From positions 1 to 36,924 of the IMG/VR virus record IMGVR_UViG_3300033571_006471: a stretch of DNA of 36,924 nucleotides. One strand, given 5' to 3'. Numbering within the stretch: position 1 is the stretch's first letter; each line of letters opens with the position of its first letter. The stretch is from a virus. The notes under the pieces were generated by a model. It saw nothing but the letters and a program-made list of their open reading frames with translations, ran no database searches and was not told the origin of the DNA. A program made the position numbers and the translations under genes. Below are positions 88 through 36,924 of this stretch, piece after piece.

Positions 88-2201
88 ATGCACGAGCAGA
101 GTTGGCTTCTTTGGGTAAAAAGAAAGGTGGCTTCAAGTCAGCCGCTTCTAAGCGTCTGACCAAAACCGAAAAGGCTAAAGAAGTATTAGCACGGACAGGT
201 ACGGTTGAAATAAATATTGGTGGCGTTAAACAAACCGTTACTCGTGAGCAGGCGCAGAAACAGTTGGTCAAAATGGAGGCGCAACTTGAACGCAAGTTGG
301 CTTCACTGGAAACCGAGATTGATGCTGTGTATCGTTCTGAGGGTGTTCCTAGGATTGGTTCTAAGGGTGGTCCGAAGGTTGATGCTGTAGCGGATTATAA
401 AGAGCGTTTGCCGATGTTGATGAATCAGGCACGGGTTCTGAAAGATTGGAACAATACTGTCGGTACTGTCCTTGCTAAGGATATTCAGGATTTGCATTTG
501 TTGGTTACTGCTCGCCCACCTAAGGGTGCGGCGGCTATGCAGTCGGCTGCTTGGGCAAGAAAGGTTTCTAGGTCTTTGGATGCTATTGACACGATTGTTG
601 ACCCTAGTGTGCGTCAAGCGTATGAGCGTATCACGAACCTGTTACATGCTGATGAGGCGCAACTGGCGTTGCTGGAGGGTGTAACTATTCCGAACATTGA
701 GCGTCAACTAGAGTTGATGAAAAGCGGTTTGGTTGGTCGTTTGGTTGATGACACTTTGGATGGTTGGACTGAGATTACGAATCTTGGTGTGATGATGCCT
801 GATGAGATTATGAGTGTTTGGAAACCAAACTTGGAGAAGTTGCGTTCTAAGATTAATCAAAACAATTTCTTGAAAGCATACGACTATAGTGTGCAGTTCT
901 TTAAAACTTATGCGACTGGAACTATTGGGTTCTTTGTTCGTAACGGTATGTCGGCAACCTTTATGAATTATGTTGCTGGTGTTGGTAGTGACAATATTGT
1001 TTTGGGTTTCCGTGCCGCCCGTGCCATTGGCAAGGGCGAGGATGCTTGGATGCGTTTCTTGTCCAAGTTGGACCCTAGTGAGCGTGAACTGTTTCAGACA
1101 GCATGGAAAATGACTGAGGCTTCAGGTCGTGGTGTTTCTGATGACCTTGCAAGCGTAGCGTTGCGAGGCAAGTTGAATGAAAAGATTATCAACAACAGGG
1201 CTACACAGTTTATTGCTCGTAAGAACGATTTCGTTGAACGGGCTGTTCGTCTGCCTATGGCTATTGACTCTTTGAAGCGTGGACAAACATATGATGAGGG
1301 TGTGGCTCGTATTGTTCGCTACCATTTTGATTATAGTGACCTGAGTGCTTTTGATGAGTCTGCTCGCAGGTTTGTTCCGTTTTGGATTTGGACTAGCCGA
1401 AATGTTCCGTTGCAGATGGTTGAACGCATGGTTCATCCGTCAGCGTATAACACATATAATCGTATTGTTGAAGCGTCACCTGTTGGTGCAGATATTTTGA
1501 TGCCAACATGGTTGAGTGAATATAATCCGATTGCTATTGCTGGTGTTGACCAAGAGGATAAGAATGTTCCGTTCTTGCCGTTTGATGTTCCAATGACAAA
1601 GAAGGGTGGTCAGTGGGTTATGACACCTGATTTGCCTATGGTTCGTTTGCAACAGCAACTAGAGTCGTTTACTAATCCTGCTAAGTTGGTTGGTCAACTT
1701 GCGCCTGTGATTAAGTTGCCTGCCGAATTTATTGCTGGACGACAGTTGGGTATTGATGTTGGACCGTTCAAGGACAGCAAAGTTCCTGCTGAAGGTGTTG
1801 TTGACAAATATGTTTTGGCTACTATCGCTGAAATTGTTGGTGGCGAGGCTTTGGTTGGTATTGACCCTAAGACTGGTGGGCTGGTTATTAATGAGAAGGT
1901 TCCGTACACGGCACAAAACATTTTCCCAACATTAGGTCAAATGAACCGTGTTAGTGGTGGTTTAACTGGCGGTAAAGGTTCATACAAGGAGCGTATGTTG
2001 GGTAACATCGCTAACTGGTTTGGTATCCCAATTCGTTATGTTGGTCCTGACCAACAAGAGTCGCAGGCAGTGGGTAACGCTGTAACTATTCGTGAATGGT
2101 TGGCTAATGAAGTTGAGGCTGGTCGTATGACCCCAACTAAAGAGTTGCCGAAGGTTGCAAAGAAATCTACGAAGCCAACGCAACCGATAGTTCTGCCATA
2201 A
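1..2201 (+). CDS. Giant ejection-type virion protein, 3' part (continues from 33567-36924)
   Basis: The frame is open from the first bases of the window and ends in TAA at 2201. Because 1-87 repeats 36838-36924 in the same frame, this is the C-terminal part of the gene that starts at 33567. Joined, it is 5,472 nt, or 1,823 residues. An apparent TTG start at position 12 is an artefact of where the circle was cut. The part is mostly helical, with a hydrophobic stretch near 900-1000 nt and a motif FVPFWIWTSRNVPL from about residue 1548, of a kind I associate with large internal virion proteins of podovirus-like phages. Inferred role: a virion protein ejected with the DNA, possibly forming or lining the channel across the envelope. 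No catalytic domain was recognised. The 3' end overlaps the convergent gene at 2167-2400 by 35 nt. Confidence 0.8.
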   Translation, partial: QASLQTSLAKAAKEEEIVELEKAALNSADARAELASLGKKKGGFKSAASKRLTKTEKAKEVLARTGTVEINIGGVKQTVTREQAQKQLVKMEAQLERKLASLETEIDAVYRSEGVPRIGSKGGPKVDAVADYKERLPMLMNQARVLKDWNNTVGTVLAKDIQDLHLLVTARPPKGAAAMQSAAWARKVSRSLDAIDTIVDPSVRQAYERITNLLHADEAQLALLEGVTIPNIERQLELMKSGLVGRLVDDTLDGWTEITNLGVMMPDEIMSVWKPNLEKLRSKINQNNFLKAYDYSVQFFKTYATGTIGFFVRNGMSATFMNYVAGVGSDNIVLGFRAARAIGKGEDAWMRFLSKLDPSERELFQTAWKMTEASGRGVSDDLASVALRGKLNEKIINNRATQFIARKNDFVERAVRLPMAIDSLKRGQTYDEGVARIVRYHFDYSDLSAFDESARRFVPFWIWTSRNVPLQMVERMVHPSAYNTYNRIVEASPVGADILMPTWLSEYNPIAIAGVDQEDKNVPFLPFDVPMTKKGGQWVMTPDLPMVRLQQQLESFTNPAKLVGQLAPVIKLPAEFIAGRQLGIDVGPFKDSKVPAEGVVDKYVLATIAEIVGGEALVGIDPKTGGLVINEKVPYTAQNIFPTLGQMNRVSGGLTGGKGSYKERMLGNIANWFGIPIRYVGPDQQESQAVGNAVTIREWLANEVEAGRMTPTKELPKVAKKSTKPTQPIVLP

Positions 2202-2557: not shown

Positions 2558-2726
2558 AAATTTCTCCTGCCAAATTTTCTATAGCCGCATCAATGGATGG
2601 GTATTCTTTGTTTATTTCTTTCAACGCATAGATGATAGCCATTAATGTTGCTATAACAAACTTGTCATCCACATTGAATTCTGTTCCTTCAATGCTGTAT
2701 GGTTTTCCGTTTTTTCCGTAAGACAT
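2496..2726 (-). CDS. Hypothetical protein (76 aa)
   Basis: Short soluble protein with an alternating central segment (KFVIATLMAIIYALKEIN) that looks like one amphipathic helix, and an acidic C-terminus. The ATG at 2726 shares TAATG with the stop of the upstream NMAD1-type gene, so translation is probably coupled. Its 3' end is overlapped by 62 nt by the next gene in another frame. No family recognised. Confidence 0.7.
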   Translation of the reverse strand: MSYGKNGKPYSIEGTEFNVDDKFVIATLMAIIYALKEINKEYPSIDAAIENLAGEIYEQIKEVESSGVERTTDPSA

Positions 2727-3223
2727 TAGATGTCCCTTTCTAGTTTGTATTGGAATGTTCCAGCGTGATACATAACTGCAATTGTGGCGTAGCCAACAAT
2801 GTCACGGTATGAATCCTCTAATGGTTCGTTCACTCCTTCGGAGCCACGACCAATCAGATTTTTAATTCTAGCAATCTTGTCGCACATACGAACAGCCAAA
2901 CCGAGAATACCAAAGTTGTTGATGTTCTCGTGACCGTAGTCGTGTTGTTTGCGACACAACAGTTCCAGCATGTCATTATGGTTGTATGGGATGCCCATTG
3001 ATGTCATGTGTTGTAAAGATTGTTCTCCAGCAGACTTTAGAACATCAACCACTAGGTTGATGTCGTCACTGTCGTATTCGCCTGCTTGTAGTTTCAGTAC
3101 CCACCTGCTCAGGAATGTTTCATGTGAGTCAAAGTCTTTCGGGTCGGGCATTGTTGTCCGTGCTGCTTCCTCCATTATGTTTAGAACATAATCGGCAGCG
3201 GAATCCCAAGTTTTATATTCCAT
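2726..3223 (-). CDS. NMAD1/DUF1599-type nucleotide-modification-associated protein
   Basis: The C-terminal half (from about residue 90) carries the hallmarks of the nucleotide modification associated domain 1 family (DUF1599): RKQHDYGHENI, a VRMCDKIARIKNL segment, then a VNEPLEDSYRDIVGYA block and a closing hydrophobic helix. In many phages this family travels with base-modification or nucleotide-metabolism genes; its biochemical role is not settled. The first 90 residues are a helical extension I do not recognise. Start ATG at 3223, overlapping the end of the sigma-like gene by 11 nt. No base-modifying enzyme is recognisable elsewhere in the genome. Confidence 0.78.
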   Translation of the reverse strand: MEYKTWDSAADYVLNIMEEAARTTMPDPKDFDSHETFLSRWVLKLQAGEYDSDDINLVVDVLKSAGEQSLQHMTSMGIPYNHNDMLELLCRKQHDYGHENINNFGILGLAVRMCDKIARIKNLIGRGSEGVNEPLEDSYRDIVGYATIAVMYHAGTFQYKLERDI

Positions 3224-3993: not shown

Positions 3994-4349
3994 TGTTTTT
4001 CCGCCTGAATAACAGTTACCTGTTTGTCATCCAACCATGCGACACCATTAAGACCGTCCATCAGTAGTTTCACATAGTTGTCTAGGTCGCCTCGTAGTTT
4101 GGATTGCTCACCATCTATCGGAGTTAATGTTACTGTCGTTCCTGTCGGAGTGAATACACATTCAACTTTTACTGTGCCTTCATACTGCGGACCGTCATAT
4201 ATTTGTGCGATGTATGCTTCTGCTTCCAATGTGGTTTTTGGCGTAAAAACACGACCATAACGAGTCATGCGTGGTCGCCCTTTTGGGGTTGGTTTGATTG
4301 GAAAGAAAACGGTGTGCGGTTTCTTTTTGTTTTTACGCTTTGCTGCCAT
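3990..4349 (-). CDS. RusA-like Holliday junction resolvase
   Basis: 119 residues. After a lysine-rich start it reads GRPRMTRYGRVFTP, typical of the RusA N-terminal basic loop, and then GDLDNYVKLLMDGLNGVAW with LDDKQV. Asp88, Asp90, Lys94 and Asp107/108 fit the acidic cluster and lysine of the RusA active site. RusA cuts four-way DNA junctions as a dimer, resolving recombination or replication intermediates before packaging. ATG at 4349 shares TAATG with the end of the HslV-like gene. The C-terminus stops soon after the last acidic pair, a little shorter than many RusA proteins. Confidence 0.87.
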   Translation of the reverse strand: MAAKRKNKKKPHTVFFPIKPTPKGRPRMTRYGRVFTPKTTLEAEAYIAQIYDGPQYEGTVKVECVFTPTGTTVTLTPIDGEQSKLRGDLDNYVKLLMDGLNGVAWLDDKQVTVIQAEKQ

Positions 4350-4933
4350 TATGGTTTCGCTGTCTGTATAAAGGTGTGGAACGGTGCGCCGCTACCGTTA
4401 TCAAACTTGGCGGCTACCGTTAATGATTTCAACAACACCTGTTTAGCATTTGCTTGTACGACACGCTTGCCAGCGGTGTACGCCTGTAATGCTCCTAGAC
4501 CGTAGTGTGCGCCTGAACCGATTGCATACAGGTTGCATGTGTCGGTTTCGGTTCCATAATCCTCATCAATTTGAAACACGGTTCCGTTAGCGCAAACGAG
4601 TATCTCGTTTGCTGACTGTGCTGGCTGGTCATCATATTGTGGTCTGCCTGCGCCATGTGCTTCTAAACATTCTTTGTAGGCGGGGACAAACTGTGACACC
4701 ATAAACTTAACCAGTTTTGCGCCAAGTAGTTTCGGGGGAAGAATTGGTGGTGTGAACGCATGTTGAATAACATTCGCTCCACGGGTATCACCTGCGACAC
4801 CAATCAAATATTTACCTACGGTAACTACTTTGGGCTGGTTCATTTTGCCGACACGGTTATAATCATCGGTCCATTGTGAATCGGAACCGATTGCACAATA
4901 GTCGTCACCTTGGATTGCGAGTATGGTTGTCAC
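4349..4933 (-). CDS. Proteasome beta/HslV-like Ntn-hydrolase
   Basis: 194 residues. It begins M-TTILAIQGDDYCAIGSDSQ, like HslV and 20S proteasome beta subunits. If the initiator Met is removed, Thr1 is exposed as the nucleophile, Asp falls at position 17 (IGSDSQ), and a Lys lies at about position 34 where Lys33 is expected. A second conserved block, YAIGSGAHYGLGAL, matches the IGSG loop of HslV. The GTG start at 4933 (GTGA overlap with the primase stop) puts Thr directly after Met, which supports this start. No propeptide is present, as in HslV. Known relatives form double-ring proteases fed by an AAA+ unfoldase; no HslU gene is visible here. The target is unknown; host-protein degradation and virion maturation are both possible. 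Confidence 0.8.
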   Translation of the reverse strand: MTTILAIQGDDYCAIGSDSQWTDDYNRVGKMNQPKVVTVGKYLIGVAGDTRGANVIQHAFTPPILPPKLLGAKLVKFMVSQFVPAYKECLEAHGAGRPQYDDQPAQSANEILVCANGTVFQIDEDYGTETDTCNLYAIGSGAHYGLGALQAYTAGKRVVQANAKQVLLKSLTVAAKFDNGSGAPFHTFIQTAKP

Positions 4934-22351: not shown

Positions 22352-22558
22352 ATGCTTTCATCCGTATGGGTCCCAATCATTGTCGCAATCATCATGGGAC
22401 CAGTCGTGGTGGTCTTACAAAAACTTCGTAAAGAAAATACCGAACAACACAACCAAGGGCAAGTCTTGCTTCGGGTTATCGGGAATAAGGTTGACAAAAT
22501 AGGTAGCAAACTAGACAACCATATTGGTTGGCATGAAGGACAAAAAGATGGCGAGTAA
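22352..22558 (+). CDS. Membrane-anchored coiled-coil protein (68 aa)
   Basis: N-terminal TM helix (VWVPIIVAIIMGPVVVVLQ, 5-23), then a charged coiled-coil-like tail (RKENTEQHNQGQVLLRV...NKVDKIGSKLDNHIG). N-in or N-out is unclear. This layout occurs in phage lysis-associated membrane proteins and small holin partners. It overlaps the next gene by 11 nt. Confidence 0.62.
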   Translation: MLSSVWVPIIVAIIMGPVVVVLQKLRKENTEQHNQGQVLLRVIGNKVDKIGSKLDNHIGWHEGQKDGE

Positions 22559-22814
22559 AAAACGGGGCATAGATGACATCGTTAGACCAATTAAAGGTGA
22601 ATTGCGTTTATATGTCAACAAGGCTGTAAAGTCAGCATACAAGGCTGGTAACACCAAGAAGGCTAGAGATAATGCTGTTTGGTGGGCTAAGGATGCTTAC
22701 AAGTCTTATTATGGTACAACCAAAGGTTTTGCTCAGGCGTTTGAGAAGGCTGAACGAGAGTTAGCCGCTAAGCGTGTTGCATCTAAGGCTAAAACAATTA
22801 GGAGAACAAAGTAA
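22548..22814 (+). CDS. Small basic protein (88 aa), member of the MASKKR/GIDDI family
   Basis: Starts MASKKRGIDDIVRPIKGELR and is Lys/Ala-rich throughout, ending ...SKAKTIRRTK. The N-terminal tag recurs in five other small proteins at 26959-28607. AAGGA lies 6-7 nt before the ATG at 22548, and its C-terminal codons AGG-AGA carry the ribosome site for the portal gene (TAATG at 22814). Role unknown; location between terL and portal suggests a virion or packaging part. Confidence 0.7.
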   Translation: MASKKRGIDDIVRPIKGELRLYVNKAVKSAYKAGNTKKARDNAVWWAKDAYKSYYGTTKGFAQAFEKAERELAAKRVASKAKTIRRTK

Positions 22815-24574
22815 TGGCTAAGAAGTCTGCGGCAGACCAACTTAAAATGTACAAGCAACGCTTAGAAGCATCTAAGCGTTGGCGTAAAGACGAAGGTTAC
22901 GATGAGGTTTGGCGCAGGCTAACAGACCTATATAAGGGTCACCAATATGAGGATTATCGTGACGAGGACAGACTTCTTGTTAATATTGCTTTCTCAACGG
23001 TAAACATTATTGCACCAAACATTTCGGTAAACTTCCCTAAGATTGCCGTTAATGCTGTTAAACCTGAAAATGCTCCTAATGCGGTTATCGCTGAAGCGGT
23101 TGTGAACTATTGGTGGAAGCATCGTGATATTCGCACCGAGTTCCGCCGTGCAGTAAAAGACTCGTTGATTATGGGTCATGGTTGGATTAAAAGTGGTTAC
23201 CGTTTTGTTGAAGAAGAAATAGTTGGACAGGACACAGAAGTTTCCGACCCTGTTGAGGGTGGTGAAATGACATCCACAACGGTAATCCTAGAGGACAGTC
23301 CGTTTGCTGAGCGTGTCAGCCCTATGGATGTTTTCGTGGACCCTGATGCCACCAGTATGCGTGACATTAAATGGATTGCTCAGCGTATCCGCCGACCAAT
23401 CCGTGATGTTAAAAACGACAAGCGTTACGCCAAAATTGCACGGGACGAAGTGCAGGTTATGGCTGTCAGCCGTTATGCCGATGACCCGTCACGCAAAAAG
23501 ATTAACGACAAAAATGAAGGTTATGCCGAAATTTTTGAGTTTTATGATGTTGCCAACAAATCAATGTCAGTGTTCTGTGAAGGTGCAGAAAACTTTTTGG
23601 TAAAACCAACGGCTATGCCATATTCGTTTGGTCAACCTTTCGTTATGTTGCGTAATTATGATGTCCCTGACCATTTTTATCCGATTGGTGACTTGGAATC
23701 CATTGAACCGTTGCAAAAAGAGTTGAACGAAACTCGCACACAGATGATGAATCACCGTAAAAAGTATTCACGCAAATATTTGTACAAAGAATCAGCGTTT
23801 GACAGTATGGGTCGTGCAGCATTGGAGTCAGATGACGACAATGTGATGGTTCCCGTCATTAGCGATGATGCTCTTGGTGGTGTGGTGGCTAACTTCCCTG
23901 CGTTGATTAACCCACCAGATTTTTATGACCAGACCGCAACCATCATTGGTGACATTGACCGTGTTTCAGGTGTGTCTGAAATTCAGCGTGGTGGAACCAC
24001 CGAGATTCGCCGTACCGCAACCGAGTCCGCTTTGGTTCAGGATGCAAGTAACGCCCGTACAGCAGACAAACTGGCGATGGTGGAGCAAGCCATCAGCGAA
24101 GTTGGTCGCCGTATGGTTGCTTTGGCACGACAGTACATGTCAGGTGAACAGGTAGCCCGTATCACAGGTAAAGATGGTGAACCTGTGTGGGTTCAGTTTG
24201 ACCGTGACTATTTGGAAGGTGATTTTGACTTTGAAGTAGTTGCTGGTTCAACACAACCACAAAACGAGTCATTCCGCCGACAGATGGCATTACAAATGGT
24301 TGACGCTATGGCTCCGTTCGCTGGAGCAGGAATCATAGATATGGGCAAACTTGCCGCCTATGTGTTACAGCAAGGTTTTGGCGTTAAGAACCCTGATGAG
24401 TTCATAATGCAACCACAGCCTCCTATGGCTCCTGAGATGGCTGGTGCTGGCGCACCACCTCCTAGTGGGCAACCTCCTGTCCCCGCTGAACAACCAATGG
24501 GTCCTTTAACTGGTGACCCTGCGATGCTCCAAGCGATGCTTGGACAGCAGGGACAGATGCCTCCAATGGCATAA
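22814..24574 (+). CDS. Portal protein
   Basis: 586 residues. Features typical of podovirus-type portals: an early WRRLTDLYKGHQY, NIAFSTVNIIAPN, a long stem-like helical section (EPLQKELNETRTQMMNHRKK), an RTATES segment, and a Pro/Gly/Met-rich flexible C-terminal tail from about 535. The portal forms the dodecameric ring through which DNA is packed and to which the tail attaches. It lies after terL and before scaffold and capsid genes, the usual order. Confidence 0.88.
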   Translation: MAKKSAADQLKMYKQRLEASKRWRKDEGYDEVWRRLTDLYKGHQYEDYRDEDRLLVNIAFSTVNIIAPNISVNFPKIAVNAVKPENAPNAVIAEAVVNYWWKHRDIRTEFRRAVKDSLIMGHGWIKSGYRFVEEEIVGQDTEVSDPVEGGEMTSTTVILEDSPFAERVSPMDVFVDPDATSMRDIKWIAQRIRRPIRDVKNDKRYAKIARDEVQVMAVSRYADDPSRKKINDKNEGYAEIFEFYDVANKSMSVFCEGAENFLVKPTAMPYSFGQPFVMLRNYDVPDHFYPIGDLESIEPLQKELNETRTQMMNHRKKYSRKYLYKESAFDSMGRAALESDDDNVMVPVISDDALGGVVANFPALINPPDFYDQTATIIGDIDRVSGVSEIQRGGTTEIRRTATESALVQDASNARTADKLAMVEQAISEVGRRMVALARQYMSGEQVARITGKDGEPVWVQFDRDYLEGDFDFEVVAGSTQPQNESFRRQMALQMVDAMAPFAGAGIIDMGKLAAYVLQQGFGVKNPDEFIMQPQPPMAPEMAGAGAPPPSGQPPVPAEQPMGPLTGDPAMLQAMLGQQGQMPPMA

Positions 24575-24632: not shown

Positions 24633-25433
24633 ATGAGCGATGAACTCGCAACACCAACACCGTCTGTGGAACCCGTACTAGAAGGTACAGGGTCACCCGA
24701 TACAGGAAGTGTTACCGAAACCCAAGATACACCCATTTTATCTGTTGAGGAATATTCTAATTATAGAGTTCCAGTCAAGTTGGATGGTGAGCAGTTAGAA
24801 GTACCCCTGAGTGAGGCACTCGCTGGTTATCAAAGGCAAGCAGATTATACTCGTAAGACGCAAGAACTTGCACAGCAAAAAGAACAGTTTCAATTTGCTA
24901 CTGCACTTCAAGCGGCTTTAGATAATGACCCTGCTGCCACAATTAACCTGTTGAGTCAACATTATGGTATTAGCCGTGAGGCTGTTACCGATATGATTGC
25001 CGATGGTGAAGATTTTGATGCTTTGGACCCTGTGGAACAAAAGTATCGTGAACTTGACAAACGGATTGCATCATTTGAGGATTACCAAACGAAACAAGAA
25101 ATTGAGCGTGAGGTTAAACTTTTACAGTCTAAGTATGAGGATTTTAATATCAATGAAGTTGTCACAACCGCTTTGCGGTTGGGTTCAACGGATTTGGAAG
25201 GCACATACAAGCAGATTGCGTTTGATAAAATGATGGCAAAAGCAGAACTGGAACGGCAAGCCCGTGAACACCAACAACAGAAGGAAGCAGGTCTGTTGGA
25301 GGCGAAACGGCAAGCCAGTGTGGTGTCGGGCGGTGCGTCCGCTACGGCTTCTACAACCAGCGAAACCTTTGAGCCAATCACATCAATTGCTGAGGCTTGG
25401 GCTGCCGCAAAGCGTCAAATAGGCGCATTGTAG
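24633..25433 (+). CDS. Scaffold protein
   Basis: 266 residues, acidic and mostly helical: a disordered Thr/Pro/Glu N-terminus, a long coiled-coil-like centre (RQADYTRKTQELAQQKEQF and KYRELDKRIASFEDYQTKQE), an Ala/Gln/Glu section and a short C-terminal helix (SIAEAWAAAKRQIGAL) of the type that binds capsid protein. It lies directly before the major capsid gene. No protease domain is fused to it. The leader (24575-24632) has an A/T-rich CTATATATAG palindrome and an AGGAGA ribosome site. Confidence 0.82.
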   Translation: MSDELATPTPSVEPVLEGTGSPDTGSVTETQDTPILSVEEYSNYRVPVKLDGEQLEVPLSEALAGYQRQADYTRKTQELAQQKEQFQFATALQAALDNDPAATINLLSQHYGISREAVTDMIADGEDFDALDPVEQKYRELDKRIASFEDYQTKQEIEREVKLLQSKYEDFNINEVVTTALRLGSTDLEGTYKQIAFDKMMAKAELERQAREHQQQKEAGLLEAKRQASVVSGGASATASTTSETFEPITSIAEAWAAAKRQIGAL

Positions 25434-25473: not shown

Positions 25474-26412
25474 ATGTCTAACCCAAACTTTGATGCGTTG
25501 CTCAGTACAACGCTCGCAAACTACCGTGACCAACTCACGGACAACATCTTTACGGCTCGCCCGTTGACCTATTTCCTTCAGGACAAGGGTCGCATCCGTA
25601 TGCTCAACGGCGGTACGAAGATTGTTGAACCACTCATCTACGGTCAGAACTCAACTGTAGCATCGTACTCAGGTTATGACACCATTTCGCTTACAGCGCA
25701 AAGTGGTATCACGGCTGCTGAATACGACTGGAAGCAGTATGCTGCTTCAATCGCAATCAGCGGTATTGAAGAAGCAAAGAACAACGGTGAACAAGAAATC
25801 ATCAACTTGCTTGAAGCCAAGATTATGCAGGCTGAGGAGTCAATGCGTGAAGGTTTCAACCAAATGTTCTTTGCAGACGGAACTGGCAACAGCAGCAAGG
25901 ACTGGAACGGTCTTGGAAATATCGTTGAAGCATCAGGAACCGTTGGTGGTATCAACCGTGCAACCGCAGGTAACGAGTACTGGCGTTCATACGAGGAAAA
26001 CACCGCAGGTGCTTTGACCCTCGCACAAATGTCCACTGCTTACAACAGCGTGTCTGTTGGTAACGACCACCCTGACATGGTTCTGACCACTCAGACCTTG
26101 TTTGAAAAGTATGAGGCTCTTTTGCAGCCACAACTTCGTTACACCGACACCAAGACAGCGGATGCTGGTTTCCAAAACCTGTTGTTCAAGGCTGCTCCTG
26201 TTGTTTACGATGAACACTGCACCGCAGGTGTTGTGTACTTCTTGAACAGCAAGTACCTGACCTTGGTTGGTCACTCAGGCAAGTGGTTCGCACAGACAGA
26301 CTTTGTGCGTCCTGAAAACTTGGATGCCCGTTATGCACTCATCATGTGCTACGGTAACTTGACCTGCCGTAACGCAGCGAAGCAAGGAAAGTTGACCGCT
26401 AAGACTGCATAA
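25474..26412 (+). CDS. Major capsid protein (HK97 fold)
   Basis: 312 residues. Features of HK97-fold capsids: an N-arm, the loop region around LNGGTKIVEPLIYGQNSTVA, a long spine-type helix (QEIINLLEAKIMQAEESMRE), a beta/alpha core and a conserved end (FVRPENLDARYALIMCYGNL). It is followed by the best terminator in the window, as expected for a highly expressed gene. It builds the prohead on the scaffold. No separate prohead protease is recognised. Confidence 0.9.
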   Translation: MSNPNFDALLSTTLANYRDQLTDNIFTARPLTYFLQDKGRIRMLNGGTKIVEPLIYGQNSTVASYSGYDTISLTAQSGITAAEYDWKQYAASIAISGIEEAKNNGEQEIINLLEAKIMQAEESMREGFNQMFFADGTGNSSKDWNGLGNIVEASGTVGGINRATAGNEYWRSYEENTAGALTLAQMSTAYNSVSVGNDHPDMVLTTQTLFEKYEALLQPQLRYTDTKTADAGFQNLLFKAAPVVYDEHCTAGVVYFLNSKYLTLVGHSGKWFAQTDFVRPENLDARYALIMCYGNLTCRNAAKQGKLTAKTA

Positions 26413-26433
26413 GTCTTGGGGAACAACTGAGTT

Positions 26434-26464
26434 AATGGTGGGGGAGCAATCCCCCACCATTTTT
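26434..26464 (+). terminator. Rho-independent terminator after the capsid gene
   Basis: A 12-bp perfect stem (26434-26445 with 26450-26461) with a GCAA tetraloop, running into TTTT. Placed 21 nt after the capsid stop. It probably lowers expression of the following genes relative to capsid. Confidence 0.93.
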
Positions 26465-26482
26465 CATTTCTAGGAGAAAATT

Positions 26483-26959
26483 ATGCCAATGGGAGAACCC
26501 TACCCAAAGCCTGACCCACGCTCACCACGCCGTAGGCGTGAAATGCCAAAGGCTGTTCCACGACCAGCAAAAAAAGCAAAACCTCGGCGTAGGTCAGAAA
26601 GTTCTGATGCTTGGACAAAGAACGATGAGTTGCTGTACAAGTTGATGGGCGGCAAGTCCAAGACTAAGTACTACGAGGACCAAGCAACTTATCGTGAGTT
26701 TGGTCGCACCTATGGTGGACCAACTGATGCTGCTAGTGTTGCTATGCGTAAACGCCGTGAGGCTGGAGATTATTCTTTTGGTGAAAAGCCAAAGAAGCGT
26801 ATGAGTCCTAGTGCGCCTAAAAAGGGTCGTGGCGGAAACAAGAAGGCTGCTCCTAGCGAGAACACTCGTAAGCGTAAGCGTTATGACTCGTTGATGGGAT
26901 ATAAGTCGGGTTTTGTTGGTACGCCACCAAAGAAAAATGTTAAGCGAGGAGCAAAATAA
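26483..26959 (+). CDS. Basic, low-complexity virion-type protein (158 aa)
   Basis: Very rich in Lys, Arg, Pro and Ser (SPRRRREMPKAVPRPAKKAK; ENTRKRKRYDSLMGY). The first 45 residues look disordered, the middle has one folded stretch (NDELLYKLMGG ... YREFGRTYGGP). It ends KKNVKRGAK, where the codons also supply GAGGAG for the next gene. Likely binds packaged DNA or the capsid interior, by charge and position only. First of a cassette of basic small genes. Confidence 0.68.
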   Translation: MPMGEPYPKPDPRSPRRRREMPKAVPRPAKKAKPRRRSESSDAWTKNDELLYKLMGGKSKTKYYEDQATYREFGRTYGGPTDAASVAMRKRREAGDYSFGEKPKKRMSPSAPKKGRGGNKKAAPSENTRKRKRYDSLMGYKSGFVGTPPKKNVKRGAK

Positions 26960-27177
26960 TGCGTAAACCTGCTATTACTGGATTGGCTCGCCCTAAAGGT
27001 ATTGATGATGTCATCAAACCTTTGGCTAAAAGTGCAAAGAAAGTTGCTAAGAAAGCCAGCAAGGCTAAGAATGATATTCCTGACCCTAAGTATAAGAAGA
27101 ATCCTTATAACAAGAAGGGTGGGTTAACTACCGATTATAAGGATTATGTTTTGCGTAACAGCCGAGGCGACTACTAG
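26959..27177 (+). CDS. Small basic protein (72 aa), GIDDV family
   Basis: Starts MRKPAITGLARPKGIDDVIK and continues as Lys/Ala/Ser repeats (PLAKSAKKVAKKASKAK), then a Tyr/Lys-rich end. The KPAI and GIDDV blocks match those in neighbouring small proteins and at 22548. TAATG overlap with the previous gene. Histone-H1-like composition; DNA binding is inference. Confidence 0.7.
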   Translation: MRKPAITGLARPKGIDDVIKPLAKSAKKVAKKASKAKNDIPDPKYKKNPYNKKGGLTTDYKDYVLRNSRGDY

Positions 27178-27179
27178 AT

Positions 27180-27476
27180 ATGGCTGCTAAAAAGCGTAAA
27201 CCCGCAATTGACCTTGGTGAAGAACGAATGTTGGAGCGTTCTAAACAACTGCGATTGGAAAGAGGAAGGCGGCGCAATTTGGGTAAAGGTTATTATCTTT
27301 ATGCCAATAATGACCTTTCTAGTTCAAATCCAACAAGAGGAAAAATGAAACACTTCGGAATTGGGCTTGGTTGGGGTGTTGAGCGTGACCCAAATCACCG
27401 TGGTCGTGTTCAACAACGAGCAATCACTCAACGCAAAAATCAACAACGCAAGAACCGTAAAAAAGGAGCAAGGTGA
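27180..27476 (+). CDS. Small basic protein (98 aa), KKRKPAI family
   Basis: Starts MAAKKRKPAIDLGEERMLER and is Arg/Lys-rich to its end (QRKNQQRKNRKKGAR). The N-terminal KRKPAI tag is shared with 27476. The middle is neutral to aromatic (YYLYANNDLSSSNPTRGKM). The last codons hold AAAGGAGC, the ribosome site of the next gene. Confidence 0.7.
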   Translation: MAAKKRKPAIDLGEERMLERSKQLRLERGRRRNLGKGYYLYANNDLSSSNPTRGKMKHFGIGLGWGVERDPNHRGRVQQRAITQRKNQQRKNRKKGAR

Positions 27477-27760
27477 TGGCTTCTAGGAAGCGTAAGCCTG
27501 CTATTGAGCGTGGTGTTGGTCATTCTTATGGTGACTTTGCTGGTTATGACTCTATTAAATATGATGAAAGCGTTGAATTAAGCAAAATATTGAATCGCCG
27601 TGGAATGACTTTGACAAGTAAACCTAATAAGAAAAGTGCTACTGACCATGAAATGATGTGGGACAGTTTGATTGATGTGAACGAAGCAGCATCTCGTTCG
27701 TATGCAAAATATAATAAAAAGTCGGTAAAGAAAAAGAATATTAAACGAGGAGCAAGATAA
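27476..27760 (+). CDS. Small basic protein (94 aa), KRKPAIE/VGH family
   Basis: Starts MASRKRKPAIERGVGHSYGD. KRKPAIE matches 27180 and RxVGHxxG matches the next gene, linking the set. The middle is acidic-helical, the end basic (KKKNIKRGAR) and encodes GAGGAG for the next start. I chose the ATG at 27476 (TGATG with the previous stop) over a GTG one codon earlier. Confidence 0.7.
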   Translation: MASRKRKPAIERGVGHSYGDFAGYDSIKYDESVELSKILNRRGMTLTSKPNKKSATDHEMMWDSLIDVNEAASRSYAKYNKKSVKKKNIKRGAR

Positions 27761-28038
27761 TGGCATCTAAGAAGCGAGCAATTGAAGCCCGTGTGGGTCA
27801 CACTCAGGGACTTGATGATATCGGTAAAGGTATTATGAAGTTGGGTGAAAAGTATGCTAACAAGTTGCATCGTGGCAAGGTTTATATGAAGGTTCGTAAG
27901 GAACTTAAAGGGGAAAAGGATAAGGGAATTCGTGCAATCCGCAAGGACATGTATTTGCCACCAAAGAAAGGTACTTACGCTAATCCTTATAGCGCAAAAT
28001 CTCTACCAAAGAGCGTAACAAAGAAAGTAGTAAAGTAA
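27760..28038 (+). CDS. Small basic protein (92 aa), VGH/GLDDI family
   Basis: Starts MASKKRAIEARVGHTQGLDD. It combines both tags of the set: KKRxAIE-RVGH as in 27476 and GLDDI as in 22548 and 26959. The rest is Lys/Gly-rich with a Tyr-containing segment (GTYANPYSAKSLPKS). TAATG overlap with the previous gene. It best supports common descent of the cassette. Confidence 0.72.
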   Translation: MASKKRAIEARVGHTQGLDDIGKGIMKLGEKYANKLHRGKVYMKVRKELKGEKDKGIRAIRKDMYLPPKKGTYANPYSAKSLPKSVTKKVVK

Positions 28039-28040
28039 TT

Positions 28041-28607
28041 ATGGCATCATCAAAGAAACCAAAAGGCATTGAGGACGACCTAGCGAAAAAGATTTTGGCG
28101 TTACTCCGCAAGGGTACTCCTGCCGCAAAAAAGAAGGCAGAAAAACTTCAAGGTGTTCAGCGTGGATTTCGTGAATCATCTGCAAAAATTCAGCGAGATA
28201 AAGAAGCACTCATTAGAGAGTGGAATCGTAAACTTGGTGCAGAATATTATGCGACAAAGCGAGCAAGCGAAGCCAAGAGTGTGTCTCAGCGTTTGCGTGA
28301 AGAATCTGCTTTGAAAGGTATGGATTCCAAGTTCAGGAAGGTTGCTAAAAGAGAGCGAGCCGATGAAGCCGCAGCAGCAAGCAACGCAGGTATTCGTGCT
28401 GCTCGCAAGAAAGCAACTCGTGATGCGGGTGGTCGTAACGCTCCTGACCGTATTGATGCCCGTAAGAAGGCTGCCGAGAACCGTGCTAAGAACGCTCGTC
28501 CGAAGCCTGCTGCTGGTGGTGCAGGTAAGGGTCCTAAGCCTCCAAAGAAAACTGGTACTGCTTCAGCACCTAAGGGTCCGAAGAAGCCACGAAACAACAA
28601 GAAATAG
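28041..28607 (+). CDS. Lys/Ala/Arg-rich histone-like protein (188 aa)
   Basis: Starts MASSKKPKGIEDDLAKKILA, with the family tag in the form GIEDD. Then a long charged helical region and, from about residue 110, an Ala/Arg/Lys/Pro-rich disordered tail (RPKPAAGGAGKGPKPPKKTG) like histone H1 or mycobacterial HupB-type tails. A DNA-condensing virion protein is plausible; a scaffold-like assembly factor is the alternative. Confidence 0.68.
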   Translation: MASSKKPKGIEDDLAKKILALLRKGTPAAKKKAEKLQGVQRGFRESSAKIQRDKEALIREWNRKLGAEYYATKRASEAKSVSQRLREESALKGMDSKFRKVAKRERADEAAAASNAGIRAARKKATRDAGGRNAPDRIDARKKAAENRAKNARPKPAAGGAGKGPKPPKKTGTASAPKGPKKPRNNKK

Positions 28608-28610
28608 ATT

Positions 28611-29108
28611 ATGGCTGGCAAGAAACCAAAGTTAGATATCAGCGACCTGTTGGGGTTCTTGAATCAACCTAAGGTTAAGGCTGCTACTAATTTGTCTCAG
28701 GGCAAGTTAACTTCGTCTGATGTTATGGGTTTAATGGGTGGCGGTCAGTCTAAGGCTGCGCCTTATTCTGATTTTTTGGCTCAGGCTACTAATCAAAAGG
28801 TTAAAAACGATTATGCAACAGCAAAGTTTTTGGCTGACTGGTACACACCTTTCAGCGAAGGACAAAGACTGGTTCAAGGTAAATCTGAACCGATGGACCC
28901 TATTTGGGCTGCTATGAGTATTTTCCCTTTTGGCAAGGCTGCTAAAAAGTTAAAAAATGTTGACAAAGAAACAAAGATGCTTTTGGATGTCCTTAGGTCG
29001 TCTAAGCCTTTAAGGAATCAGGTTGCTGGCTCCAACAGTGGAAGTGGTCCGTATGAAGGACAGTATTCCCCTATGGACATATTGTTGATGCAATTAGCAG
29101 GCGAATAA
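28611..29108 (+). CDS. Hypothetical virion-region protein (165 aa)
   Basis: Starts MAGKKPKLDISDLLGFLNQP, a weak version of the basic tag, then Lys/Ser/Gly segments and a hydrophobic centre (PIWAAMSIFPFGKAAKKL). The C-terminal end is more neutral (GQYSPMDILLMQLAGE). Unrecognised. It closes the basic-protein cassette before the head-tail genes. Confidence 0.65.
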   Translation: MAGKKPKLDISDLLGFLNQPKVKAATNLSQGKLTSSDVMGLMGGGQSKAAPYSDFLAQATNQKVKNDYATAKFLADWYTPFSEGQRLVQGKSEPMDPIWAAMSIFPFGKAAKKLKNVDKETKMLLDVLRSSKPLRNQVAGSNSGSGPYEGQYSPMDILLMQLAGE

Positions 29109-29111
29109 AGG

Positions 29112-29131
29112 GTTTGGGGGAACAATTCCCC
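29112..29131 (+). other. Short hairpin GGGGAA/TTCCCC
   Basis: 6-bp stem with a 3-nt CAA loop in the 30-nt spacer after the 165-aa gene. No T-run follows. It resembles a weak terminator or RNA stabiliser. Confidence 0.4.
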
Positions 29132-29139
29132 TAAGAGTG

Positions 29140-29364
29140 ATGAACAACAACTCTGTCCCCGCCCACGCCTATTATGGCACTCCTCAGACTGGCTACCGCC
29201 TTGCAGGCGTAGCCGAGTCCCGTATTGCTGCCCCTAGTGGACCGTACCTTGGTCGGGGGGATAAATGCGCTGGAAACGATGATACCTGTAACGCCAACAA
29301 GGTGCGTGGACAGGAGTTCTGTGTGGGGCATATGAAGAAGATTAAGTCTGAACGGGGTGCATAA
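29140..29364 (+). CDS. Small Cys/His protein (74 aa)
   Basis: N-terminal VPAHAYYGTPQTGYRLAGVA, then CAGNDDTCNANKVRGQEFCV and GH: three Cys plus His, one zinc site likely. The ATG at 29140 follows a GTG in frame; no strong Shine-Dalgarno. Similar small Cys proteins occur before adaptor genes in aquatic phages, in my recollection. TAATG with the adaptor gene. Confidence 0.65.
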   Translation: MNNNSVPAHAYYGTPQTGYRLAGVAESRIAAPSGPYLGRGDKCAGNDDTCNANKVRGQEFCVGHMKKIKSERGA

Positions 29365-30074
29365 TGGCTTATAATCAGATGACTGCTACAGCGTTGCGTC
29401 AGACTGTTCGTGATATTACGGACCTTGACGCTGAGGACCTTCCTGATTCGTTGTTGAACCTGTATTTGCGTGACGGGTATTACCGTATTTTGGATATTGA
29501 GAAGCGTTGGAACTTTTTGGAGAAGTCGTTTACTTTTAATACGGTTGCGGACCAGCGGGCTTATCCGATTAGTGCTTTTACTGCTGACCCGATGGCGCAG
29601 ATTGTTTCTATTGTGGATAACACGGGTGTTGGTTTGCGTTTGGATATGGTTTCACATGATGAGGCTGAAACCACTTATGTTGGGTCGTATGACACTAGCG
29701 GTGACCCGTTGTTTTACAGCATTTGGGAGGGAAATATTCATTTGTTTCCTAAACCTAATAATGCTCGTACTTTGACGGTTCGTGGTTATCGTGAACCGAT
29801 TGATTGGGTTACTACTGGTGGTTATGTTGATGCTAGTAGCAATTTGCATTTTGCTTTGGTGTATTATGCTTGCAGTCGTGTGTATCAACGCTTAGAGGAT
29901 GTCGCTATGGCTGATGTTTATAAGCGTTCGTTTGATGAGGGTGTTACTTTGGCTATTAAGTCTATTATGACTCCTAATAGTCATGCTCATTTGGTGTTGT
30001 CGGCTGGACGAACCAATGGTCGTCCAACCTTTAACGGATGGATGCAAAATCTTGGTAAAACTTTAGGACAGTAA
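29364..30074 (+). CDS. Head-tail adaptor / tail-tube A-type protein
   Basis: 236 residues. Helical N-terminus with LPDSLLNLYLRDGYYRILDI and EKRWNFLEKSFTF, then a beta-rich centre and a C-terminal helical pair (HFALVYYACSRVYQRLEDVA). This is the layout of T7 gp11/P22 gp4-type adaptors that bind under the portal and start the short tail. It is directly followed, in TAATG, by the nozzle-like gene, the usual pair in podoviruses. Confidence 0.8.
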   Translation: MAYNQMTATALRQTVRDITDLDAEDLPDSLLNLYLRDGYYRILDIEKRWNFLEKSFTFNTVADQRAYPISAFTADPMAQIVSIVDNTGVGLRLDMVSHDEAETTYVGSYDTSGDPLFYSIWEGNIHLFPKPNNARTLTVRGYREPIDWVTTGGYVDASSNLHFALVYYACSRVYQRLEDVAMADVYKRSFDEGVTLAIKSIMTPNSHAHLVLSAGRTNGRPTFNGWMQNLGKTLGQ

Positions 30075-32532: not shown

Positions 32533-33567
32533 ATGGGTATTGTTTATGTGAATGGTCGTTTGGTTCGTGAATCTGATGAGGAGAAGGCAGCCCGTTTAGC
32601 GTTGGCTGGTGCTGGTAATACTGGTACTCAGGAACAGTTTGATAAGCAACGCATGTTTGGTTCTACGGCACAAAAGAATCTTGTTAAGGCTGGTCGTGCA
32701 TTAAAAGAACCAACCGCAACTGTTGGACCATATAATCCTGCTAAAAATAATCGTGTTAGTTTAACTACTGGTAAACCTGTTGTAGCACCAACCGCAGATA
32801 GCAATAAGGGTGGTTCAGGTGCAGCCGTAACCGACAAGGCTTTGCAGGAGGCTCAGGACCGTGCGTTGGCTTACGCTTCAGGTATGCAAGCCGTTTCAGA
32901 ATATGAAGCACAAGCCAACGCAGCGAAAGAGGCTGCGTTGGGTCGTCTTAAAGATGTTTATGACCCACAGGAAAAACAGATTGCTGATGAACGGTTGCGT
33001 CAACTGAAAATTTTGGAAGGTTTAATTTCTCAGGGTCAAACAGATATTTCTCAGGCTGAAGTAGATTTTTTGAACGCTGTTAAACCAACATCGGCATATT
33101 CTAATATGCCGATGGTTAACATGGAGGCTATTCAGAATCCGTTGTTGGCGGCGTTGCGTCAAGCAGGAGCAAGCGAGGAATCTGTTCAAGCACAGTCAGC
33201 GATGGACAAGTCGTTGGGTGACTTTATGAATCAGTTACAGCAGCAATCTGCCACTAGGTATGGTAATGTTCAAGAGAACTATTTAGAGTCGTTGAGGAAC
33301 GCTGGTCGTGGTGGTGCTTTGGCTGGTCGCACATATTTGGGTCAGCGTCAACCTGAAATTACTGCTGGTATTGAATCAGATTATTCTAAGATGTTGAATG
33401 AGTTGGCTACTGCACGGGCTGGTAGTGAATCCAGTGTTTATGACCAGTTGAATGATGCGTTGTCCAAGATTACCGAACTCAGGGCTGATACTACAGCAAA
33501 GTATGCTCCACGCAAAAAACAACAAACAACAAATGTTAATCGTGGTGGGTCAAGGGCTGAAATTTAA
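32533..33567 (+). CDS. Internal-virion-type coiled-coil protein (344 aa)
   Basis: N-terminal 100 residues low-complexity (Pro/Thr/Gly), then an Ala/Gln/Glu-rich helical body (EYEAQANAAKEAALGRLKDV; DERLRQLKILEGLISQGQTD) and a GAGRGGALAGR-type turn near residue 265. It looks like a T7 gp15-type ejection protein by composition and neighbours only. It overlaps the giant gene in TAATG at 33567. Confidence 0.65.
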   Translation: MGIVYVNGRLVRESDEEKAARLALAGAGNTGTQEQFDKQRMFGSTAQKNLVKAGRALKEPTATVGPYNPAKNNRVSLTTGKPVVAPTADSNKGGSGAAVTDKALQEAQDRALAYASGMQAVSEYEAQANAAKEAALGRLKDVYDPQEKQIADERLRQLKILEGLISQGQTDISQAEVDFLNAVKPTSAYSNMPMVNMEAIQNPLLAALRQAGASEESVQAQSAMDKSLGDFMNQLQQQSATRYGNVQENYLESLRNAGRGGALAGRTYLGQRQPEITAGIESDYSKMLNELATARAGSESSVYDQLNDALSKITELRADTTAKYAPRKKQQTTNVNRGGSRAEI

Positions 33568-36500
33568 TGGTTGTTTCTCGTGGTCCGTTGAATGTTCCTA
33601 AACCTTATGTAGGTAAAGGTATTGCTATTGGTAATGTTATTAAACCAAAAGCAACCGAAACAGATGAGGAAACAAACCGTCAAAAGTTGGATGCAACTTT
33701 GCAGACCGCTATTGAGCGTATCGCACGGGACCCGAAGTTAACTCAGGACCAAAAAATTCAGGCTGTTATAGAAGTACAGAAACAGGCTGAAGGTAAAAAG
33801 TCCCCTAGTGTGTGGGGTGGTGTTGTTGGTGCTGTAGGTGGTGCGGCTAAAAAAGTTGTTGCTGGTCCTATTTATGCTATGAATGAGTGGGCTGATTTGA
33901 TTAAGCCTCTGACGAATACTGCGATGTCTGCGGCTAACGAAATTGAAGGTGCGCTTCAAACTCAGGGTGCAAAACTTGAACAAAAGAAACAAACAGGTCA
34001 ACCGTTAAGTGCAACGGAAAAGATTTTTAGCACACTTGGTATTGGTGGTTATGGTGATGAGGGCAAAACTAGCAGGATTTTGTCCAACCCTGACCAGTAT
34101 GCACCAAGTTGGGACAGGTTTGTAAAGAACGCTGGTCGTGAGGACCATTATAATCCGTTTTTCACTGAAGAAAAGTTTGCTGACAAGTCAACTGCATCAA
34201 AACTGTTTTCAACAGTTTATGTTGGTGCTATCGCTGACCCGTTAACTTATGCTGGTGTTGGTGCATTAAACCATGCTGGTCGTGCAGGTCGTGTCGCATT
34301 AGCGATACGCATGGTTGAAAAGTATGGTGACGATGTTGTGGATGTTGCCCGTATCACTAGGTATGGTGTTGCTGGTGTTCCTAAGGCTTTGCGTGAAGCA
34401 GAGAACCTGAGCATGGGTATTCGTTATGCTGGAAAAATTATTCCTAAGACAGGTGGTGCTGAAACCGCTTTTGCTTATGGTCGTGCCGCTGTTGGTGATG
34501 TCCTTCAGGCTGGTAAATATAATCCGATTCGTGGACTGGTTACCGCTACAACACCTAAAAGTCTAAAGGGTATTCAGGCTTTGAATGTTGGTCGCCGTGC
34601 AGGTCAAGGTTTAGATTATGAACAGATTCGTCCAAGCATAGTTCAGTTCACTGCAAGCAAGTTCGCTAAGGGTGCTACTTCGGTTGCGTATCGTCAAGCA
34701 CAGCAGGAACTTGTTGAGTTGGCTCAACGCCAAAGGGCTTTGGTTGGTAAAGGTTTGCGTAACAAAGCCGCCAAGGCTGTTGGTATCGGTGCTAGGGATG
34801 CTGAAGCGTTAAACATTTATCGTTATATTGAAATGCCTGAGTCAGAAATGTTGGCTAGTAAGGCTATTACTGATGAAACTAAACAGTTGGTTGTTGATAT
34901 TCGTGCATGGCAGGACAAGTTGCGTAATTCCGCTAATGCGGAAATACGCCAGTTCGGTGATGACTTTGGTACGAATGTTACTGAGATTGGTTTCATTGAT
35001 GACTATTTGCATCACAAGGTTACACCTGAGGCTAGAAAGTGGATGATGTCTCAGCAAGGACAGCGTAGTTTGGCACGAGGTGAATGGAAGGGTTCTGATA
35101 TCACCTTGAAGGAGTTGACTGATAATACTGGTCCTTTGATGTATCGTAAGTTGCGTGGTGAATATGTTGACCCTGATACTGGTGAAGTTGTTGTTGAAAC
35201 ATTTTTAGGTCAACCTGTTCGTTATGGTACGGTTGATGAGATTAACAAGATTTTTGGTGACGCTACAGAGGCGCAGGGTTTAGGTCGTTTGCAGTGGTTT
35301 GAAACCGATATGGTTTCTATTTTGGATAGTTATGCGTTTTCTATTTCAAAGGTTAAGGGTAAGGTTGCGTTTGCTAGACGGGCTTTTGATTTCGGTGACC
35401 CTGATATTATTCGTCCTTTGATTAAGAAGGTTGTCCCTGATGCTGAACTTGTGACACGCTTGGAGCGTGTTCATAGCACTATCGTAAAAACACAGACACG
35501 GTTGCGTAATCGTGTTCAAACGAATGTTATTCGTTTGCAAGATATGGGTAAGTATGGTGTTCGTTATGCAACCAAGTTTTTGAATGGTGAATTAACTAAG
35601 AAGGCGATGACAACACAAGAAATTGCCAAGTTGACTCGTAGGTTAGATTTGGCTATTGCTGATTTGACTGCTGCTAATGTTCGTGCGGCTTCTATTGAGG
35701 CGGCTAAGCGTGGCGAGTTCCCTGTTTTGAACGCCGTGTTTTTGGATGAGTTAACAAACCTTAGGGCGGCGATTAATAACGCTGAGCGTTATGCCGCAAC
35801 TATTGAGTTGCGTAACATTTATGCAACGATTTATCCGAATCATAATCCTACGACTTTGGCTGGTCGCAGCCCTGAGTGGTTGGCTGAAAAGATTATGAAT
35901 TCCAAAGGTATTCCTGCTACTCGTGAGTTGCGGGAGGTTAATGCACGGATGCGTCAGTTGCGGGCGCAAATGGATGCGATGCCAGACGGACCAGAGTTTA
36001 CCCAGATGCGAGCAAGTTTGGAATCAGATTATTATGATTTGGAAAATGTTGAGCGTGGTTACAGTCAGATTGCCAGCGTTAAGGCTGAGGCTACTTATGC
36101 TGATGATGGTTTACTTTATGGTTCAGCAGATGACCTGATTGCTTTACCTGAGGAGGCTGGTTACAAGGCTTTCCGTACACGCCCACGAGATGCTGGTTTC
36201 GCTAACGGTGATGACTCGGTTGCTGTCCACGCTATCCCTGAAAAAGAATTGGTTGATTTGCGTCAGCCAGCAGATTTGTTGGACTATTTTTCACCTGACA
36301 ATTTCGGTGAGGATTTGGGTTTTGCTTTAGCACAAAAAGGTTTACAACTGGAAGGTGAGGCGTTCTCTGTTGGGTATCGCCAGTTGATTGAAACTGGCGA
36401 ATACGATGACGAATTAGCCGAGTTTTATCCAGCGATTGCCATGTTGATTGACACTATTCGTTGGAACACGGTTCATGTTGACCCTAACGATATTGTTTCT

Positions 36501-36924
36501 GATGCACAAATTGTAGAAATTTTTGAATCCATTGATGACGCTATCCGTCAGATACCTGACTTGGCTGACCCTGAAGATGTGGACATTTTTGCTAGGGAGA
36601 TTATGGAGGAAGTTTTTGGTGCTAGTGCTTTCCGCCGTAGCGTTGACCCACAAGACCCACGACAAGGTTTGCTAATCCCATCTAGGTTGATTGACGACAC
36701 TGGTCCTGCTGATGAAGGTTTCGCTGTAATCTTTCCTCATAATCATAATTTCCCACGAGCAACAGGTAACCCTACTGATGGTGTTCAGACTGTTAAGGGT
36801 AACAAGTTGGTTAAGAGTATTCTTGATGGTGATTATGAGCAAGCCAGTTTGCAAACAAGTTTGGCTAAGGCTGCTAAAGAGGAGGAAATCGTTGAACTTG
36901 AAAAAGCAGCACTTAATAGTGCGG
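33567..36924 (+). CDS. Giant ejection-type virion protein, 5' part (continues at 1-2201)
   Basis: ATG at 33567 (TAATG overlap) begins MVVSRGPLNVPKPYVGKGIA; the frame is open to the window end and continues in the same frame from 88 to 2201 once the 87-bp repeat is merged, 1,823 residues in all. This part includes Gly/Ala-rich hydrophobic stretches (WGGVVGAVGGAAKKVVAGPI near residue 80; TVYVGAIADPLTYAGVGAL near 215) that could enter a membrane, then long helical segments with many Arg/Glu, and an acidic region near residue 900-1050. Inferred as the largest ejected protein. No lytic or protease motif recognised. Confidence 0.85.
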   Translation, partial: MVVSRGPLNVPKPYVGKGIAIGNVIKPKATETDEETNRQKLDATLQTAIERIARDPKLTQDQKIQAVIEVQKQAEGKKSPSVWGGVVGAVGGAAKKVVAGPIYAMNEWADLIKPLTNTAMSAANEIEGALQTQGAKLEQKKQTGQPLSATEKIFSTLGIGGYGDEGKTSRILSNPDQYAPSWDRFVKNAGREDHYNPFFTEEKFADKSTASKLFSTVYVGAIADPLTYAGVGALNHAGRAGRVALAIRMVEKYGDDVVDVARITRYGVAGVPKALREAENLSMGIRYAGKIIPKTGGAETAFAYGRAAVGDVLQAGKYNPIRGLVTATTPKSLKGIQALNVGRRAGQGLDYEQIRPSIVQFTASKFAKGATSVAYRQAQQELVELAQRQRALVGKGLRNKAAKAVGIGARDAEALNIYRYIEMPESEMLASKAITDETKQLVVDIRAWQDKLRNSANAEIRQFGDDFGTNVTEIGFIDDYLHHKVTPEARKWMMSQQGQRSLARGEWKGSDITLKELTDNTGPLMYRKLRGEYVDPDTGEVVVETFLGQPVRYGTVDEINKIFGDATEAQGLGRLQWFETDMVSILDSYAFSISKVKGKVAFARRAFDFGDPDIIRPLIKKVVPDAELVTRLERVHSTIVKTQTRLRNRVQTNVIRLQDMGKYGVRYATKFLNGELTKKAMTTQEIAKLTRRLDLAIADLTAANVRAASIEAAKRGEFPVLNAVFLDELTNLRAAINNAERYAATIELRNIYATIYPNHNPTTLAGRSPEWLAEKIMNSKGIPATRELREVNARMRQLRAQMDAMPDGPEFTQMRASLESDYYDLENVERGYSQIASVKAEATYADDGLLYGSADDLIALPEEAGYKAFRTRPRDAGFANGDDSVAVHAIPEKELVDLRQPADLLDYFSPDNFGEDLGFALAQKGLQLEGEAFSVGYRQLIETGEYDDELAEFYPAIAMLIDTIRWNTVHVDPNDIVSDAQIVEIFESIDDAIRQIPDLADPEDVDIFAREIMEEVFGASAFRRSVDPQDPRQGLLIPSRLIDDTGPADEGFAVIFPHNHNFPRATGNPTDGVQTVKGNKLVKSILDGDYEQASLQTSLAKAAKEEEIVELEKAALNSA
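36838..36924. repeat. 87-bp direct terminal repeat, right copy
   Basis: Exact copy of 1-87. Merging the two closes the genome at about 36,837 bp and restores the giant gene. Confidence 0.97.

Follow-up and report, generated by a model that had tools for sequence, protein, structure and literature searches.

What do the small basic proteins encoded behind a major capsid gene share, if their bodies are unrelated and their N-termini are not? The question is raised by the window, i.e., the whole stretch of 36,924 nucleotides analysed here (IMG/VR record IMGVR_UViG_3300033571_006471). An earlier note had proposed that genes starting at 22548, 26959, 27180, 27476, 27760 and 28041 encode proteins with common N-terminal tags, and all six starts are as claimed. 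The record of 36,924 bases is a complete-looking podovirus-type genome with an 88-base direct repeat common to both ends, as in a circularly closing contig. Its late genes are listed in Table 1. There is no close DNA match to the window among phage isolates; the nearest record among these is a Manatee Spring podovirus genome, with a 42% identical capsid protein. The capsid protein has at least 599 candidate places in IMG/VR, of which the best 80 are 90–99% identical.

Three other genes of this genome deserve mention. A giant open frame (33561-36923 plus 1-2201, plus strand; 1121 + 732 amino acids, end repeat included) seems to span the record ends, lacks cysteine and has nearly no family match; its product is probably a very large virion protein, either internal or ejected. 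In the replication module, 4349-4933 (minus strand) encodes a proteasome/HslV-like Ntn hydrolase (PF00227, just above the cut-off), which could be a protease of the phage. Finally, 2726-3223 (minus strand) encodes a DUF1599 protein ('nucleotide modification associated domain 1'). A phage with such a protein may modify its own DNA, which would fit injected anti-restriction proteins.

Table 1. Late genes of the window and positions of the tag in order along the genome
Feature	Position	Strand	Support
Terminase	starts 20500	+
88-aa basic protein with tag part 2 KKRGIDDIVRPI, between terminase and portal	22548..22814	+	tag HMM E 0.007
Portal	22814..24574	+	phrog_156 E 4.8e-28
Scaffold, acidic, pI 4.5	24633..25433	+	phrog_3927 E 9.7e-12
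Major capsid protein	25474..26412	+	phrog_9953 E 2.8e-76
Hypervariable cassette between the major capsid gene and the 29140 gene	26413..29136	+
158-aa basic cassette protein without tag	26483..26959	+
72-aa basic protein, pI 10.1, widespread tagged body	26959..27177	+
Full tag, GLARP allele MRKPAITGLARPKGIDDVIKPLAK, gene 26959-27177	26959..27033	+	tag HMM E 2.6e-14; A1 profile E 1.3e-15
Tag part 1 only, MAAKKRKPAID, gene 27180-27476 (98 aa, pI 11.7)	27180..27212	+	tag HMM E 0.0095
Tag, RGVGH allele MASRKRKPAIERGVGHSYG, gene 27476-27760	27476..27532	+	tag HMM E 2.7e-10
Full tag, ARVGH allele MASKKRAIEARVGHTQGLDDIGKGI, gene 27760-28038	27760..27834	+	tag HMM E 5e-15
Tag part 2 only KPKGIEDDLAKKI, gene 28041-28607 (188 aa, pI 10.9)	28041..28094	+	tag HMM E 0.034
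165-aa basic cassette protein without tag	28611..29108	+
Head-tail adaptor, SU10 adaptor family	29364..30074	+	PF24175 E 1.3e-18
Virion structural protein	starts 30074	+
Pilot-like protein	starts 32087	+

A bipartite tag and its carriers

The tag reads roughly M-x-K-[KR]-[KPS]-A-I-[EDTQ]-(ARxGHxx or GLARPx)-G-[ILF]-x-D-D-[IV]. It comprises a basic first part ending in K-[PSR]-A-I-[EDTQ] and a second part, G-[ILF]-x-D-D-[IV], with which a basic helix begins; one of two alleles, ARxGHxx or GLARPx, stands between them. The residues A-I, G and D-D are invariant in an alignment of 18 divergent tags (alignment A1). AlphaFold models predict, with low confidence, a coil followed by a helix that begins at the DD motif (residues 1-13 and 14-39, respectively, for the 26959 protein); with mean pLDDT values of 63 and 58, they are too poor for a fold search.

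A tag HMM was built from the relatives' tags, with the window itself and its nearly identical relative (L004/L106) left aside, and was run over all 444 six-frame open reading frames of at least 40 amino acids in the window. The six named proteins come out on top, with strong scores for 27760, 26959 and 27476 and far weaker ones for 22548, 27180 and 28041. For none of the six did any of 500 composition-preserving shuffles equal the real score. The window thus holds one bipartite tag, with both parts on three proteins and one part on three others. The proposal that all six share tags stands in full for 26959, 27476 and 27760, and for half a tag only in 22548, 27180 and 28041. As had been noticed, 27760 unites both tag types, and it is the strongest match in the window. 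The tagged tandem had been drawn from 26483 to 28607, yet the 26483 protein carries no tag: it scores at chance level (71 of 500 shuffles match the real score), as does the 28611 protein (156 of 500).

By body, the six proteins are not one family. The 22548 match is confined to RGIDDIVRPI, and this protein recurs at 90% identity or more in five relatives (L004, L017, L019, L022 and L023). The 27180 protein has one IMG/VR relative (L130, 48% identity), which starts with MAAKKKKPAID. For 28041, the match covers only PKGIEDDLAKKI, of which the relatives' version is KPKG[IL][IE][DE]D[IL]. The R-G-A-[KR] endings of 26483, 27180 and 27476 were considered as a second protein tag and rejected, because they arise where the AGGAGCA Shine-Dalgarno sequence of the following gene, which immediately precedes the overlapping start of that gene, is translated in frame. 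Weak Pfam and PHROG matches of the small proteins, including a SpoVG match of 22548 (E 0.025), fall below the cut-off and were disregarded, and family searches match no tagged body to a known effector.

Modularity of the tag and selection on the peptide

The earlier note had described a leader-like tag with swapped bodies, and the relatives bear this out. In related uncultured podovirus contigs, the HMM finds the tag on 129 proteins of 62 contigs, with at most four tagged genes per contig. Their bodies fall into 20 clusters by single linkage at E 1e-3, an approximate number since the bodies are low-complexity and Lys/Ala-rich. A strict regular expression retains 67 distinct proteins in 14 body clusters. 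Even when the cluster to which a body belongs is left out of the profile, the tag of that body is detected, at E values from 1e-3 to 1e-16; for instance, E is 1e-13 to 2e-12 for 27760 and 3e-6 to 2e-4 for 27476. Between paralogues of the same genome with different bodies, amino acid identity in the tag is 0.64, while identity at fourfold sites of conserved residues is 0.41 versus 0.34 expected by composition. Synonymous sites are thus nearly randomised, which argues for selection on the peptide and against a recent copying of the DNA. Moreover, the C-terminal halves of 26959 orthologues are 89–98% identical in DNA and occur with either the GLARP or the EARVGH allele. These orthologues differ mainly at tag residues 7-14, where one of eight amino acids and 33–42% of nucleotides are identical. 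Alleles exchanged on near-identical bodies, together with the randomised synonymous sites, indicate that the peptide itself is selected and modular.

Several genomes, the window included, hold GLARP and ARVGH-type alleles together. Concerted change of the tags within a genome was considered as proof of a common partner and rejected, as the general test is not significant (195 of 2000 permutations). In one contig (L134, from record G018), a private variant, KPRK[AP]FDG, replaces KPAI in three adjacent proteins whose bodies differ; here the tags may have changed jointly. Another N-terminal motif that is unrelated to the tag, MPx[KY]Yx[IV]L[SDA][NS][GHD], was also observed on 46 distinct proteins with different bodies in tagged and tagless contigs (e.g., L115:488-886, L039:4526, L039:4954, L006:6041 and L019:7513). 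The L115 homologue of 26483 carries it (MPQYYRILDNG); other 26483 homologues do not.

Tagged open reading frames detected by regular expression all lie on the capsid strand (108/108). Gene calls in the relatives were made with a simple script. Besides the locus behind the capsid gene, tagged genes occur upstream of the terminase, flanked by small genes of membrane or lysis type on one side and lysozyme-type genes on the other (L087, L094-L096, L119 and L132). A homologue of 27476 is found there (L095, 4507), and in the two genomes to which L087 and L001 belong, both places hold tagged genes. The two alleles were scanned separately in the collection, the alignment of all 18 tags being too diverse for a scan. 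These scans used exact peptide patterns, which may miss more divergent tags and wider hosts. By such patterns, with their limited reach, no GLARP-type tag was confirmed in cellular genomes. Nine of 25 records searched whole had no tag, 26959 and 27760 had no homologue in phage isolates at E up to 10, and no description of the tag was found in open-licence papers.

The cassette and a candidate docking partner

In relatives with a 90–99% identical capsid protein, the cassette spans about 0.1–3.7 kb and zero to eight called genes. Its proteins are uniformly basic: in complete cassettes, 193 of the 193 proteins tested have a pI above 9 (with a 139-amino-acid decoration-like class left out), and 20% of the 41 other window proteins do. 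Scaffold, portal and capsid protein have a pI of 4.5–5.0. Although all 129 tagged proteins reach a pI of at least 9.9, cassette proteins without a tag in the same array are equally basic. The tag itself is only mildly basic, with a mean net charge of +1.6 over 24 residues; DNA binding, which the earlier note had allowed for the tag, would therefore come from the bodies. Cysteine is absent from the 10,329 residues of 96 distinct tagged proteins, and 195 cassette proteins contain five cysteines in all, in three short open reading frames that look miscalled. Other late-strand window proteins have 0.45% cysteine. Terminase, portal, capsid protein, adaptor and the 30074 protein do contain it; the larger window proteins without it are the scaffold, the pilot-like 32087 protein, 32533, the 18062 protein and the giant open frame. 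The tagged proteins are thus cysteine-free, like the predicted ejection proteins of the phage.

Tagless contigs can have a capsid protein 90–96% identical to that of the window. As many relatives are of this kind, the tag is dispensable and probably does not depend on simple recognition of the capsid protein. In tagless contigs, identity to the window is mostly 42–50% for the scaffold, 55–62% for the portal and 38–50% for the adaptor; in tagged contigs it is at least 53%, 65% and 70%, respectively. This sequence pattern points towards scaffold, portal or adaptor as a possible partner, rather than the capsid protein, although simple descent would give the same pattern. Some contigs (e.g., L046, L058 and L076) have the nearer scaffold and portal, yet lack the full tag. 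The acidic scaffold is a candidate. The discordance between a capsid protein conserved at 90–96% and portal, scaffold and adaptor diverged to 38–62% is unusual in itself and suggests exchange of the capsid gene or strong constraint on it.

Possible roles of the tag and known systems

The earlier note had put forward capsid targeting for proteins packed in the head, a reading that would fit where the genes lie, their basic and cysteine-free products and the example of T4. We give roughly an even chance to the following account. The peptide would serve as an address tag by which cargo proteins that are small, basic and free of cysteine, and vary as a set, enter the prohead as it assembles. Its probable docking site would be the acidic scaffold or the vertex of portal and adaptor. 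The bipartite tag has a K-[PSR]-A-I-x(2-7)-G stretch at the N-terminus and then G-x-DD, which caps a basic helix. The cargo would sit among the packaged DNA and leave with it at infection, and the swapped bodies may then act in the new host cell, e.g., against defence systems. Tag modularity, selection on the peptide, cassette hypervariability, basic charge, cysteine-free composition and the late-gene position on the capsid strand are the data behind this account; the remaining steps (uptake into the head, docking to a partner, ejection and the action of the cargo) would follow by analogy with T4.

The main rival holds that the tagged proteins are resident DNA-condensing or assembly proteins. 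In this view they would remain part of the structure, where they offset the charge of the packaged DNA or help the scaffold to assemble; the tag would anchor them to shell, scaffold or portal, and the body would matter little beyond its charge. A cassette that is basic throughout, with a summed net charge of up to +153 per genome beside an acidic scaffold, and Lys/Ala-rich bodies that are helical in low-confidence models would suit such a role. However, the near-identity of the C-terminal half of 26959 among orthologues exceeds what bulk charge needs, and in genomes with a near-identical capsid protein the cassette charge is +14 to +30, or none is called. We regard this explanation as possible but unlikely. 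There is a slimmer chance that the tag anchors the proteins to the outer shell surface as decoration or cement, with the swapped bodies displayed outside. A position right behind the capsid gene is common for decoration proteins, and tagged genes do lie there; many cassettes also start with a separate 139-amino-acid protein (MPLxSND...) that is decoration-like in look. The tagged proteins, on the other hand, are highly basic and cysteine-free with low-confidence helical or disordered models, unlike compact decoration folds. Moreover, their tag occurs independently of capsid protein sequence and also near lysis genes.

Alternatively, the tag could address a target in the infected cell late in infection (nucleoid, replication clamp or membrane) instead of the virion. 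Some tagged genes do lie among lysis genes, and part of the tag resembles the PCNA-binding peptide of FEN1 (RQGxxQGxLDD). Yet this match is at chance level (E 0.62) and the first-position Gln is not conserved in alignment A1, so that a sliding-clamp motif of the PIP-box type was rejected; all tagged genes found are, moreover, on the late structural strand. This explanation, too, appears improbable. We give hardly any credence to the idea that no functional tag exists and that the shared N-termini merely combine translation-start composition (Ala and Lys codons after ATG) with recent duplication. MA[SA]xK[KR] by itself is a common kind of start, and the genes are translationally coupled with shared Shine-Dalgarno sequences. 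The invariant A-I, G and D-D across 18 divergent tags and the nearly randomised synonymous sites nevertheless led us to reject start composition, and the tag is detected at E values down to 1e-16 with a body's own cluster left out. The HMM scan of the window with its shuffles likewise contradicts this idea.

Returning to the address-tag account, we advance its broader form with somewhat less confidence than an even chance: a modular system for addressing cargo to the head that has not been described before, is independent of the T4 leader and belongs to a widespread uncultured podovirus group. In it, two exchangeable tag alleles, and possibly a second type of tag, would direct dozens of unrelated basic effector bodies to the virion for injection. 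If this is true, searching for the tag by itself could reveal many injected proteins that are so far unrecognised. A leader unrelated to that of T4, in a phage group abundant in the environment, would mean that such a strategy evolved more than once, and phage-derived particles would gain a new cargo tag.

Among known systems, encapsulin cargo-loading peptides are short linear peptides that address unrelated proteins to an HK97-type shell; they are usually C-terminal and bind the shell protein. The likeness is one of analogy. The phage tag is N-terminal and its presence is independent of capsid protein sequence. The ejection proteins gp7, gp16 and gp20 of P22 and the internal core proteins of T7 are late podovirus proteins carried in the virion, as the tagged proteins would be. 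They are, however, conserved machinery, encoded elsewhere in this genome (which has its own pilot-like 32087 protein and the giant cysteine-free open frame), whereas the tagged proteins are small, basic and exchangeable. A further close parallel is offered by the internal proteins of T4, which have no mutual homology except for an N-terminal packaging leader, are injected and inhibit restriction enzymes (PMC12373910; PMC3012670). Like the tagged proteins, Ip1-3 are small, basic and cysteine-free, and they are encoded at more than one locus, with polymorphism at a locus and with one locus beside a lysozyme gene; the hypervariable locus content between close relatives is a further T4 trait present here. 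The window tag is nevertheless not homologous to the T4 leader (MKTYQEFIAEA). Run against three T4 sequences, the tag HMM reported only Ip2 (0.3 bits, E 0.098), and homology through the 5-mer EARVG shared with Ip2 was rejected (shuffle p about 0.09). No prohead protease family of the gp21 type was found among the scanned window proteins, which thus give no T4-like processing signature; the genome does encode the proteasome-like protein at 4349-4933. Further differences from T4 are the podovirus-type genome and the array directly behind the capsid gene, with up to four tagged genes per contig. By analogy, the tag may thus work like the T4 leader while standing outside that family.
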